Origin: Verrucomicrobiia bacterium | GTDB taxonomy: Bacteria; Verrucomicrobiota; Verrucomicrobiia; Limisphaerales; JAEYXS01 | Direction of reading: 5' to 3' | Length of the DNA: 64,000 bases | Assembly: GCA_036405135.1 (NCBI GenBank) | Contig: DASWYF010000020.1 | Span: 310,001 to 374,000 of the forward strand | Shown: piece by piece, positions 34,468 to 38,475 of the stretch | Layout of the letters: each line of letters opens with the position of its first letter | How positions within the stretch are numbered: position 1 is the stretch's first letter | Notes under the pieces: generated by a model | What the model saw: only the letters and a program-made list of their open reading frames with translations | Told to the model about the DNA's origin: nothing | The model's database searches: none | Made by a program: the position numbers and the translations under genes

Positions 34468-34809
34468 TTAGCCTATCCCCTCTACTCGATCCAAATACAC
34501 GTTCACTAGCTTATGGTTTTTCAAAAGGCTTTCAATTTGAGGCCAGAGCCGTGCCAAAACCGCATGAAATTGAACTTTACGCATATTGCCAAATCGTAAA
34601 TGAACCACCCAAGGTGGAGGCGATCTGATGATGATGCGGTCTGAAAAATCGGCATCCTTTGTGACTATCACCCATTCACGCTGACGCGCTTCATTCCATA
34701 CGCTAGTATCATCAGGGCTTGCTCCCAATTCGGACGTGAAATGAACTGGTAGACTGGGAGAAAAAGTAAGTCTTGAAGGCAGATTTTCGTCGAAGAAGAA
34801 ACCCTTCAT
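34468..34809 (-). CDS. DUF5615 PIN-like toxin (VapC45-like)
   Basis: A 113-aa protein starting MKGFFFDENLPSRLT at ATG 34809, the typical DUF5615 opening in which the Asp-Glu-Asn is an active-site element of a Mut7-C/PIN-like nuclease. Later acidic motifs are TKDADFSDR and the basic-hydrophobic VVHLRFGN. A longer frame from 34866 exists, but the shorter start overlaps the DUF433 stop by ATGA and matches the family length. Expected to act as an RNase toxin held by the upstream DUF433 protein. Base composition is AT-richer than neighbours, as is common for mobile toxin-antitoxin loci. Confidence 0.8.
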   Translation of the reverse strand: MKGFFFDENLPSRLTFSPSLPVHFTSELGASPDDTSVWNEARQREWVIVTKDADFSDRIIIRSPPPWVVHLRFGNMRKVQFHAVLARLWPQIESLLKNHKLVNVYLDRVEGIG

Positions 34810-35030
34810 GCCGCTGTAACCACAGTGTAGTGATTGGCCATCAATTTGGAAGCATAGTTGAGGCAAGCCTGAATGTCTTCTTTGCTCAAAGATGGATATT
34901 CTTCCAACACTTCCTCAGGTGAATCACCGGCTGCCAAAAACTCCAATACCGTCTGGACAGCAATGCGGGTTCCGCTAACTACCGGCTTCCCATTGCAAAT
35001 ATCTGGATTGATGGAGATTCGCTCTGCCAT
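34806..35030 (-). CDS. DUF433 antitoxin (VapB45-like)
   Basis: A 74-aa protein with the DUF433 pattern: RISINPDICNGKPVVSGTRI, VLEFLAAGDSPEEVLEEYP and LSKEDIQACLNYAS. This winged helix-turn-helix-like fold is the antitoxin and probable autorepressor of VapBC45-type pairs. It precedes the DUF5615 toxin gene with a 4-base overlap, the usual order. The pair lies between the MoxR and leuA units, both on the same strand, without obvious mobility genes. Confidence 0.85.
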   Translation of the reverse strand: MAERISINPDICNGKPVVSGTRIAVQTVLEFLAAGDSPEEVLEEYPSLSKEDIQACLNYASKLMANHYTVVTAA

Positions 35031-35111: not shown

Positions 35112-36767
35112 TCAGATCCGGTTCAGCGCACTGATGATCGCCTTAATGGACGCGAGTTCGATATTCGTATCCACCCCAGCACCCCAGCGGGTCTTGCCAT
35201 CGGGCAGCTTGATCTGGATGTAGGCGATGGCGGAGGCGGAATCGCCCGCGCCCAGAGCGTGCTCTTTGTAGTAGCCCACTTGGAACTTCGGCGCACCGGC
35301 TTGTGTGAGCGAGTTCACGAAGGCCGCGATCGGACCATTGCCCTCACCTGTCAAAGCGAGTTCCTGGCCATCACGGAAGACGGTGGCGCGGCTGCGGAAG
35401 GTGCCTTCCAGGCCATCGGCGTGGAAGTGGTTCAGCTTCCACGGGGTATCGCGCTCGATGTATTCCTTCCAGAACATCGCTTTCAATTCCTCGGCCTTCA
35501 CTTCGCGGCCCAAGGCATCGACGAGATCGTTCGCGATGGGACCGAACTCGCGCTGCATGTCCTTCGGCAATTCGATGCCGAATTCCGTTTCGAGCAGGTA
35601 AGCCACACCGCCCTTGCCGGACTGGCTGTTCACGCGAATGACCTCGTGATATTCGCGGCTGATATCCGTGGGATCGATGGTCAAGTAAGGCACGTCCCAG
35701 CTCGGGCGATCGCCCTTGGTCCATTCGGCCAAGCCTTTCTTGATGGCGTCCTGATGCGAACCGCTGAAGGCGGTGAACACCAATTCGCCGGAGTAAGGAT
35801 GGCGCGGCGGCACGGTCATGCCGGTGCAGCGTTCATAGACTTCGCGGATGGCGTTCAAGTCCGTGAAATCCAACTTCGGGTCGATGCCGTGCATGTACAG
35901 GTTCATCGCCACGATGATGATATCGAGATTGCCCGTTCGCTCGCCGTTGCCGAAGAGCGTGCCTTCCACGCGATCCGCGCCCGCGAGCAAGCCCAACTCC
36001 GTGGCGGCTACACCCGTGCTGCGGTCATTGTGCGTGTGCAGGCTGATGATCAAGGACTCGCGATTCTTGATGTTCGTGCACATCCACTCGATCTGGTCGG
36101 CGTGCACATTCGGCATCGCGACCTCCACGGTGTCCGGCAGATTCAAGATCATCTTGTTCTGCGGCGTGGGCTGCCAGACATCCATCACGGCCTCGGAGAT
36201 TTCCTTGGCGAACTCCACTTCTGTGGCCGAGAAGCTCTCGGGCGAATATTGCAAGGTGACTTCCGTGCCTTGCAAGCGGTGCAAGCGTTCCTTGATCCAC
36301 TTCGCGCCTTGTACGGCGATGGCCTTGATCTCGTCCTTCGACTTGCCGAAGACGACGCGACGTTGCGCGGGCGAGGTGGAATTGTAGAGATGGATGATGA
36401 CCTTCTTCGCGCCGATCAACGATTCGACGGTGCGTTCGATCAAGTCCTCGCGCGCCTGCACGAGCACCTGGATGGCGACGTCAGCGGGGATGTGCCCCTT
36501 CTCGATGAGCAGGCGGTTGAAGGCGAACTCGGTGTTCGAAGCAGACGGAAAACCGACCTCGATCTGCTTGAAGCCGCACTTCACCAAAGCCTGAAAAAGC
36601 TCCAGCTTCTGGGCCACGTTCATGGGCACGGCGAGAGCCTGATTGCCATCGCGCAGATCCACGCTGCACCAGATGGGGGCTTGCGTGAGGACACGGGAGG
36701 GCCACTGCCGGTTCGGTAATTGAACCGGCGGGAACGGACGGTACTTCGTTGCTGGGTTCTTTAACAT
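35112..36767 (-). CDS. leuA: 2-isopropylmalate synthase
   Basis: First committed enzyme of leucine synthesis: acetyl-CoA plus 2-oxoisovalerate gives 2-isopropylmalate. At 551 aa it is of the LeuA type 2 (actinobacterial/yeast-like) form. The HMGL-like TIM barrel carries CSVDLRDGNQAL (metal and substrate Asp/Arg), GFKQIEVGFPSAS and SLHTHNDRSTGVAAT (metal-binding HxH). The C-terminal allosteric domain (about 425-551) contains the leucine-sensing region ending IKAIISALNRI. A leader peptide with seven leucines and a terminator lie just upstream, so expression should respond to leucyl-tRNA. No leuBCD genes are adjacent. Confidence 0.95.
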   Translation of the reverse strand: MLKNPATKYRPFPPVQLPNRQWPSRVLTQAPIWCSVDLRDGNQALAVPMNVAQKLELFQALVKCGFKQIEVGFPSASNTEFAFNRLLIEKGHIPADVAIQVLVQAREDLIERTVESLIGAKKVIIHLYNSTSPAQRRVVFGKSKDEIKAIAVQGAKWIKERLHRLQGTEVTLQYSPESFSATEVEFAKEISEAVMDVWQPTPQNKMILNLPDTVEVAMPNVHADQIEWMCTNIKNRESLIISLHTHNDRSTGVAATELGLLAGADRVEGTLFGNGERTGNLDIIIVAMNLYMHGIDPKLDFTDLNAIREVYERCTGMTVPPRHPYSGELVFTAFSGSHQDAIKKGLAEWTKGDRPSWDVPYLTIDPTDISREYHEVIRVNSQSGKGGVAYLLETEFGIELPKDMQREFGPIANDLVDALGREVKAEELKAMFWKEYIERDTPWKLNHFHADGLEGTFRSRATVFRDGQELALTGEGNGPIAAFVNSLTQAGAPKFQVGYYKEHALGAGDSASAIAYIQIKLPDGKTRWGAGVDTNIELASIKAIISALNRI

Positions 36768-36819: not shown

Positions 36820-36856
36820 AAAAACAAAACCCCCACCGCCGAGGCGGCGGTGGGGG
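36820..36856 (-). terminator. leuA attenuator (terminator)
   Basis: CCCCCACCGCC and GGCGGTGGGGG form a perfect 11-bp GC stem with five loop bases, followed on the minus strand by TTTTGTTTTT. It lies between the leucine leader stop (36875) and the leuA ATG (36767), so it terminates transcription before leuA unless an alternative structure forms. Confidence 0.82.
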
Positions 36857-36874
36857 CGAAATCTTGTTATGATT

Positions 36875-36949
36875 CTACCAAACCCCGACCGCCGCGCGGC
36901 TAAGCAGCAGCGCGTTCAGCGACAGTCGAAGGTTCAGTGAATAGTTCAC
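36875..36949 (-). CDS. Leucine leader peptide of leuA
   Basis: A 24-codon frame from GTG 36949: MNYSLNLRLSLNALLLSR followed by AAVGVW and TAG. Seven of 24 codons are Leu (CTG five times, CTT twice), including three in a row, which is far more than chance. It ends 18 bases before the attenuator stem on the same strand. Slow translation at the Leu codons when leucyl-tRNA is low should prevent the terminator from forming. The start codon is uncertain: no Shine-Dalgarno stands at normal distance and the predicted transcript starts at or next to the GTG. Confidence 0.72.
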   Translation of the reverse strand: MNYSLNLRLSLNALLLSRAAVGVW

Positions 36950-36956
36950 GATAAGA

Positions 36957-36985
36957 GGGATAGCCTTGGAGAGCGGGACCGTCAA
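36957..36985 (-). promoter_or_regulatory. Probable leuA leader promoter
   Basis: On the minus strand TTGACG (36980-36985), 17 bases, then TATCCC (36957-36962). Seven bases further lies the GTG of the leader peptide. Confidence 0.45.
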
Positions 36986-37008: not shown

Positions 37009-37045
37009 AGCACGAACGCTCGTGCTGCCGGATTCCAGCCGGCAG
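37009..37045. repeat. Double palindrome, left copy
   Basis: AGCACGA-ACGC-TCGTGCT (37009-37026) overlaps by two bases a second hairpin, CTGCCGG-ATTCCAG-CCGGCAG (37025-37045). The second hairpin recurs as its reverse complement at 37169-37189. Confidence 0.7.
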
Positions 37046-37168
37046 TTGAGCGGGTACGCCGTAGCATTGGATGGCTTGTTTTCCAGATGCTGAAGAAGGA
37101 GGCGGCCTGACGGAGAGTGATTTGCCGGATTTAATTTTTATCAACCGAGTGCTACTTGATCCCCCTTA

Positions 37169-37189
37169 CTGCCGGCTGGAATCCGGCAG
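37169..37189. repeat. Palindrome, right copy (inverted)
   Basis: CTGCCGG-CTGGAAT-CCGGCAG, the exact reverse complement of 37025-37045 over all 21 bases and over 25 with flanks (GTG before, T after). The 123 bases between contain no gene. Stands 12 bases downstream of folC on the minus strand. Confidence 0.7.
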
Positions 37190-37200
37190 CACATTGCGGG

Positions 37201-38475
37201 TTAACGCTTCGCGCCCCATTCGTTCAAAGCCCGCTCATCACGGGAAGGAATGGCGGCGATGCCCAGCTTTTCCATCGCTTCACCGACCAGATAGAGAGAA
37301 CCGGTGATGAGGCGGAAGGGTTTTTGGCTGGTGGCAGCGAGCGCTTGGGAGAGCGTTTCGTAGACGTGGATCATCACGCAGGGATTGATCCGCTGGCAGA
37401 CTTCAGCCAACTCGGAAGGCGTCGCGGTGCGTTGGCTGGAGACGGGCACGAGATGAATCTCTGCGACCATGGGAGCGATCAAAGTACACATCTGCCGCCA
37501 ATCCTTGTCCTCCAGAGCGCCCATGATGAGTACTGGTTTTTCTGAGGCAAAGGTGGTCTGCAATGTCTGCCGCAACAGGGTCATCCCATCCTCATTATGC
37601 GCGCCGTCGATAAGAATACGCTGGCCGTTCGCGAGCGTGACGAGCTGCAAACGTCCCGGCCAATGGACGTTGGCCAAGCCTTGGGTGATGGCGGGTTTGT
37701 TGACGGGAAGCTGTTCCTGCAATTCCTGCACGACGGCCAAGGCGAGTGCGGCGTTTTGCTTCTGATGTTCGCCTAAAAGGGAGAGGGGATAGGTGAAGGC
37801 CGAAATCTCGGCAGCTCCGATGATGTGCAGAGGGGCTTGTTTTTGCGCGGCGGTTTCGCGGATGACATTCACTGCTTCCGGCGCATCCGCAGCGGTGAGC
37901 ACAGGCAGGTTTGGTTTGATGATTCCTGCCTTTTCACCCGCTATCTTTGCGAGCGTATCGCCGAGCCATTGCGTGTGGTCGAAGGCGATGTTCGTGATGA
38001 CGCTGGCGAGCGGCGTGACGATGTTCGTGGCGTCCAAGCGTCCGCCCAGGCCCGTTTCCCAGATGACGAGATCGCACTTTTGTTCAGCGAAATAGAGCAG
38101 GGCCAACACGGTGACGAACTCGAACAGCGTGGGATGCTGGTCGGTGGGCAATTCCTTGAGCTTCGCCTGCATGTGCGTGACGAGGCGCACGAGATCCGCT
38201 TCCGAAATCATCTGTCGATTGATCTGGATGCGTTCACCGAAAGCAACGAGATGCGGCGAAGTGAAGAGGCCTACACGCAACCCCGCATGGCGATAGATGC
38301 TCTCTAGCATCGCGCAAACGGAGCCTTTACCATTCGTCCCTGCGACGTGGATGAAACGGAGTTGCTCATCCGGCGCTCCGCACAAATTCGCGAGCGCACG
38401 GGTGTTTTCCAAGCCCAGCTTGGTGCCGAACCATTGGAGGCCGTAGAGATACTGGATGGCTTCGGCGTAGGTCAT
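37201..38475 (-). CDS. folC: Bifunctional folylpolyglutamate/dihydrofolate synthase
   Basis: Mur-ligase family enzyme (424 aa) that adds Glu to dihydropteroate and to folates. The P-loop is HVAGTNGKGSVCAML, followed by GLFTSPHLVAFGERIQIN, both diagnostic of FolC. The central domain has VIWETGLGGRLDATN and NIAFDHTQWLGDTLA, and the C-terminal domain includes ILIDGAHNEDGM. Length is typical. It lies downstream of pyrG on the same strand, with 34 bases between, so the two may be co-transcribed. accD, a common neighbour elsewhere, is not here. Confidence 0.93.
   Translation of the reverse strand: MTYAEAIQYLYGLQWFGTKLGLENTRALANLCGAPDEQLRFIHVAGTNGKGSVCAMLESIYRHAGLRVGLFTSPHLVAFGERIQINRQMISEADLVRLVTHMQAKLKELPTDQHPTLFEFVTVLALLYFAEQKCDLVIWETGLGGRLDATNIVTPLASVITNIAFDHTQWLGDTLAKIAGEKAGIIKPNLPVLTAADAPEAVNVIRETAAQKQAPLHIIGAAEISAFTYPLSLLGEHQKQNAALALAVVQELQEQLPVNKPAITQGLANVHWPGRLQLVTLANGQRILIDGAHNEDGMTLLRQTLQTTFASEKPVLIMGALEDKDWRQMCTLIAPMVAEIHLVPVSSQRTATPSELAEVCQRINPCVMIHVYETLSQALAATSQKPFRLITGSLYLVGEAMEKLGIAAIPSRDERALNEWGAKR

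Follow-up and report, generated by a model that had tools for sequence, protein, structure and literature searches.

In enterobacteria, the leu operon is preceded by a leader comprising a Leu-codon leader peptide, an antiterminator and an intrinsic terminator, all ahead of leuA. Leu-rich leaders before leuA are also described in actinobacteria, as leuL or the LEU element (PMC1262725, Seliverstov 2005; PMC8079986, both in their available sections). According to the accessible part of one report, LeuL1 of Streptomyces lividans is transcribed leaderless and is without a typical intrinsic terminator, and LeuL2, a leaderless Leu leader of 12 residues with 3 Leu, is followed by a hairpin and a U stretch (PMC8079986). 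In Staphylococcus aureus, as far as the available text goes, an ilv-leu attenuator combines a leucine-rich leader peptide with a terminator, and its leucine response is backed by reporter data (PMC5794164). For a three-hairpin model, the closest case in the text available is ilvBNC of Corynebacterium glutamicum (PMC11857589).

The element described here lies upstream of leuA in a stretch of 64,000 nucleotides from a Verrucomicrobiia bacterium (the window), and is very probably a leucine-responsive, ribosome-mediated transcription attenuator of that gene. It resembles the enterobacterial leader in its Leu-codon peptide, antiterminator and intrinsic terminator before leuA, but its antiterminator strand lies inside the last leader codons, its leader mRNA is probably leaderless, and good support is limited to a single short antiterminator helix. 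As the identity of the element, the known Rfam leader RF00512 (Leu_leader) was rejected, its score in the window being 18.5 bits against a gathering threshold of 50. Unlike the actinobacterial leuA elements, the window element has a covarying intrinsic terminator, and its leader sequence differs from the actinobacterial MRFGLLLLSCRGEGL given in the accessible sections (PMC1262725, PMC8079986). It also shares features with LeuL2, which in the same partial source stands ahead of leuS rather than leuA (PMC8079986), and with the S. aureus attenuator, which belongs to the Firmicutes, lies before ilvD and has an antiterminator that pairs with the U tail (PMC5794164, available sections).

An initial sequence-only reading of this locus held that such attenuators are described mainly in proteobacteria and actinobacteria, a list that is incomplete given the leucine-rich attenuator peptide of S. 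aureus (PMC5794164, in the part available). It also knew of no example in this phylum, which agrees with our searches of open-licence papers on leader peptides and attenuation in Verrucomicrobia: no description was found. PMC8632094 has no mention of Verrucomicrobia, and PMC11683593 was rejected as a prior report, as the leader-peptide passage in its accessible text concerns ErmB.

A leader peptide and terminator upstream of leuA

The sequence itself shows the open reading frame (ORF) and the terminator, how the promoter is spaced, where the Leu codons lie, and that the element is conserved, with covariation in both helices. The features, in the order of transcription, are as follows.

36957-36985, minus strand: predicted promoter, with -35 TTGACG (36985-36980), a 17-nt spacer and -10 TATCCC (36962-36957)
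36949-36875, minus strand: leader peptide ORF, GTG start, encoding VNYSLNLRLSLNALLLSRAAVGVW*, probably leaderless, with homologues forming a set of 62 distinct leaders; codons GTG AAC TAT TCA CTG AAC CTT CGA CTG TCG CTG AAC GCG CTG CTG CTT AGC CGC GCG GCG GTC GGG GTT TGG TAG
36917-36937, minus strand: first Leu codon block, CTG AAC CTT CGA CTG TCG CTG, also candidate region 1
36902-36910, minus strand: second Leu codon block, CTG CTG CTT, the putative main control codons
36883-36893, minus strand: region 2, GGCGGTCGGGG, in the last leader codons, antiterminator partner of region 3
36845-36857, minus strand: region 3, 5′ arm of the terminator, common to the antiterminator
36829-36841, minus strand: region 4, 3′ arm of the terminator, a near copy of region 2
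36820-36828, minus strand: U tract of the intrinsic terminator, TTTGTTTTT
35112-36767, minus strand: leuA, 2-isopropylmalate synthase, 551 aa, the putative regulated gene; NCBIfam TIGR00970 (leuA_yeast), 727.9 bits with a cut-off of 697.4

The promoter-like pair ends 7 nt ahead of the leader GTG. The leader has 24 codons, seven of them for Leu with CTG CTG CTT adjacent, just as the sequence-only reading had described on the leuA strand. That reading also placed a perfect 11-bp GC hairpin with a U-tract 18 bases beyond the frame; the strong terminator, its U tract and the close spacing stand, but with boundaries drawn slightly differently the stem (36857-36829) has 13 pairs, 12 of them Watson-Crick and the terminal one G-U, around a loop of 3 and followed by the tail TTTGTTTTT, and its first pair lies 17 nt from the leader stop. 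A further 61 nt separate the stem from the leuA start (36767, minus strand). The transcript 36820-36948 folds at -64.8 kcal/mol (z -6.5). When the finder used in the shuffle test below was run over the whole window on both strands, one other place emerged among 19 terminator-like clusters, a frame of 15-28 codons at about 11803 on the plus strand. No T-box or other Rfam riboswitch family reached threshold within the window, and Rfam searches of ten relatives gave tRNA and SRP matches only.

Since folC (37201-38475, minus strand; NCBIfam TIGR01499) ends upstream on the same strand, the hairpin could in principle be its ordinary terminator, with a Leu-rich frame alongside by chance. When the 200 nt preceding the stem were dinucleotide-shuffled 3000 times, no shuffle had a short ORF that ended close to the stem with as many Leu codons as the real sequence (the observed maximum in this test is 10 Leu, because longer in-frame starts were also allowed), and both the helices and the codon positions are conserved. 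Moreover, folC adjoins leuA only in the genome of the window (tblastn over loci L009-L036 and L039-L118 matched L009 alone), whereas the leader stays with leuA. We therefore reject a folC terminator, which this conservation contradicts and to which we attach practically no probability.

Two further observations concern the flanking DNA. A 25-bp perfect inverted repeat (37022-37046 and 37168-37192) lies just upstream of the leader promoter, its arms within a dispersed family: searched with a 401-base query from here, the genome gave 53 matches, almost all of them covering that stretch. Downstream of leuA, a 132-aa frame on the minus strand (34468-34866) has no NCBIfam match.

Relatives carrying the leader

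Window-type LeuA was found in 28 of the 58 genomes searched (by our own reading of the result table), and all 27 such loci with upstream DNA have leader and terminator. The finder that chose leaders for alignment required a terminator, at least 15% Leu and a promoter-like score; each of the 27 passed. Its 73 hits were reduced to 64 by merging nine duplicates, and to 62 distinct leaders by dropping L094 and L101 as chance hits, because these are located in loci of a terminator-less group. A named search contributed 80 loci, of which two had no upstream DNA; the finder assigned 24 of the 78 usable loci to the terminator type and 54 not, although one of the latter (L082), with a short upstream sequence, still has a terminator. 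Among the record titles in the terminator group are Limisphaerales, Pedosphaera and Verrucomicrobia subdivision 3, and from these titles the order was taken as Limisphaerales. Three records titled Klebsiella pneumoniae or Akkermansia muciniphila (L041, L042 and L044) carry window-type LeuA and the leader, yet these are probably wrong names for environmental Verrucomicrobiota.

At E ≤ 0.01, the covariance model found a match in 305 of the 320 order genomes. By hand count, 240 of the 320 matched at E ≤ 1e-8, 65 were weaker and 15 had no match; many of the weaker matches could be nothing more than terminators. Of 387 genomes sampled across the phylum, two matched at 1e-5, both within the order, and the non-matching genomes may themselves include order members. 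Among the weak-hit genomes examined, the leader was not seen by eye in L219, L220, L221, L225 or L226, and it was likewise not seen in L043; in our own reading, L223, L224 and L227 have divergent leaders, and the only match in L228 and L229 was a citramalate-synthase-like one. Part of the order thus has no leader or only a very weak one, and several lineages lack it.

Codon placement and two competing helices

Leucine makes up 27.9% of residues across the 62 leaders, and its position follows a marked pattern. Leu frequency is 0.58, 0.81 and 0.74 at 8, 9 and 10 codons before the stop (the place of the second codon block), 0.21 and 0.11 at 11 and 12, and 0.39-0.69 at 13-18 (with the first codon block at 14-18). 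No leader has Leu 6 or 7 codons before the stop, and nearer to it Leu is rare (0-0.02, but 0.13 at the last codon). A stall model, in which the ribosome was placed on each codon in turn while the polymerase had just cleared region 3, predicted pairing of region 2 with region 3 in none of 62 leaders with the ribosome at the stop and in all 62 with the ribosome on some Leu codon, with a switch point 7-8 codons before the stop. In this model, the Leu codons are mainly at positions from which a stalled ribosome would not block region 2.

Both helices covary. Over the 62 leaders, 97.0% of terminator cells are paired and 25 are changed on both sides, compared with 3.8 in shuffles (0/500); for the antiterminator, 86.4% are paired, with 35 both-side changes compared with 14.3 (0/500), and slid antiterminator registers pair only 34-59%. 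Region 2 usually has C or T where the terminator 3′ arm has G, and the antiterminator is slightly weaker than the terminator (mean -21.0 vs -24.1 kcal/mol). The ribosome-mediated layout seen by the sequence-only reading, which had proposed a search for a competing antiterminator fold and for Leu codons conserved in related leuA leaders, therefore gains support from this alignment: the fold is present and covaries, and the codons are conserved in position.

Codon permutation points the same way. The 2:3 energy of the window, -27.4 kcal/mol, was reached by 0/200 permutations (mean -9.2), and over the 62 leaders the mean was -20.9 vs -9.0 kcal/mol when codon-permuted, with 58/62 at ≤10/200. Synonymous recoding of region 2 kept much of the pairing (mean -17.7; 4/62 at ≤10/200), and hence the conserved C-terminal residues themselves fix much of 2:3. 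A strong textbook 1:2 hairpin was not supported as a general feature: 11/62 leaders beat codon permutation (≤10/200), the window being one of them (2 of 200), and RNAalifold on the ORF columns returned only a 4-bp helix. Without a ribosome, the model predicts 2:3 in 35/62 leaders, window included, so that a classical 1:2 protector is not generally supported; together with the weak 1:2 helix, this makes the untranslated state uncertain.

A probably leaderless leader mRNA

In an unrestricted search of the 150 nt before the leader start in 62 relatives, 58 of the 66 TTGAC 5-mers found lay 34-39 nt before the start codon, where the chance total was 8.9. This -35 spacing fits 58/62 leaders, 44 of the 62 starting with GTG, and would place the transcription start at about the first codon; the leader mRNA is thus probably leaderless, as judged from spacing. 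Shine-Dalgarno-like 4-mers precede 3/62 leader starts, a scarcity that says little because only 6/42 leuA starts have them. The conserved spacing suggests that a leaderless leader mRNA is integral to the device, in line with reports from actinobacteria.

Leaders of ilvB and of other Verrucomicrobiota

The window genome contains a second full-length, weak match to the covariance model before ilvB, with the leader MTVSVQVLVVVAGVVSPAAGPCRF; this locus, at G000:C16:63357-63486 (L169), lies outside the window and has a Val-codon leader (VLVVV..VV) and a terminator. Of 30 ilvB loci, 28 were examined, L217 and L218 being omitted as fragments or distant relatives, and in all 28, L169 included, the leader is rich in Val (17-35%), a terminator is present and TTGAC lies 34-43 nt upstream. 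A rough test of the ilvB antiterminator placed 16/28 at ≤6 of 100 codon permutations, by our own count. In the his and trp operons of the window genome, no leader was seen upstream of hisG or of two TrpE-like genes.

These leaders bear on whether another sensor, a protein or small RNA, might pick between the hairpins, with the peptide incidental. Such a sensor is allowed for by the fact that the need for translation is inferred here from sequence, and by leader-codon mutations in Streptomyces that, in the available part of the source, did not behave as in classical attenuation (PMC1262725). It would leave the placement of the Leu codons unexplained, these lying where a stall exposes region 2 and being rare where a stall would hide it. 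The ilvB leaders of the same genomes count against it too, because codon sensing predicts their Val codons, as does the want of any Rfam family at threshold in the window. We consider another sensor very unlikely, and codon sensing by the ribosome remains the preferred reading.

Outside the order, a CGACTT-like motif occurs near leuA in 44/54 named loci, mostly inside short leaders like MTTTATALLLLSLRLTQG, without a terminator. These 54 terminator-less loci fall within L045-L118, and the short Leu leaders are found in Verrucomicrobiaceae, Chthoniobacter and Opitutaceae. The string CT[TGC]CGACT is present in 23/62 order leaders, which hints, at the level of sequence, at a shared ancestry with the terminator-less Verrucomicrobiota leaders. 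In L223, a member of the order, a leader with LNLRLTNAR, like that of the terminator-less sister group, is followed by a terminator-like hairpin; L223 is a possible intermediate.

The terminator-less leuA leaders lend some plausibility to a translational or Rho-dependent device in the window, like the actinobacterial leuA leaders, which do without an intrinsic terminator, share the richness in Leu and, according to the accessible sections of PMC8079986, are leaderless in S. lividans. Against this, the terminator of the order is strong and intrinsic, and its U tract and covarying stem are conserved, which makes such a device extremely improbable here compared with attenuation of transcription.

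One leader ahead of two LeuA families

Window-type LeuA was missing from 30 of the 58 genomes, and 24 of these were examined. The same leader lies ahead of a different LeuA at 20/20 loci, plus 3/3 by eye; the 24th genome, L227, has a divergent frame and a terminator. One tested member of this second family matched NCBIfam TIGR00973, and the members listed share about 27-32% identity with the LeuA of the window. In G101 and G133 (L176, L177, L181 and L182), both LeuA types are present, each with its own attenuator copy, and in G018 leaders also lie ahead of both types. No leader was seen upstream of the second, citramalate-synthase-like gene of the window genome (C10:82191-83699).

We lean, with modest confidence, towards the view that the attenuator is handed down as a regulatory cassette and changes less than the gene under its control. 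Within this one order of Verrucomicrobiota, one and the same Leu leader, probably leaderless, and its terminator precede LeuA of either family, the two families being about 30% identical, and both genes, each with its own copy, are present in some genomes.

Proposed mechanism and significance

Transcription start, stalling, readthrough and the leucine response are what we infer from these features. The 5′ end of the transcript would coincide with the first leader codon or differ from it by no more than one or two nucleotides, and the first ribosome would therefore load directly on the nascent 5′ end. When Leu-tRNA is plentiful, the ribosome would reach the stop codon and cover region 2, so that the 3:4 terminator forms and leuA is off. 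When Leu-tRNA is scarce, it would stall on Leu codons in the stretch from 18 to 8 codons before the stop; region 2 would stay free and pair with region 3 ahead of the synthesis of region 4, and the polymerase would continue into leuA.

The mechanism itself is textbook, and leaderless leucine leaders have already been published in Streptomyces. What is new is the phylum, as far as the literature searches reach, the breadth, and the retention of the leader across two LeuA families. Strong comparative support places ribosome-mediated attenuation, at leuA as well as at ilvB, in a phylum from which our searches turned up no description of it. A new Rfam family could be started from the covariance model and the alignment of 62 sequences. 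Finally, with a single leader kept on two LeuA families, it becomes possible to ask if a regulator may outlast its target gene.
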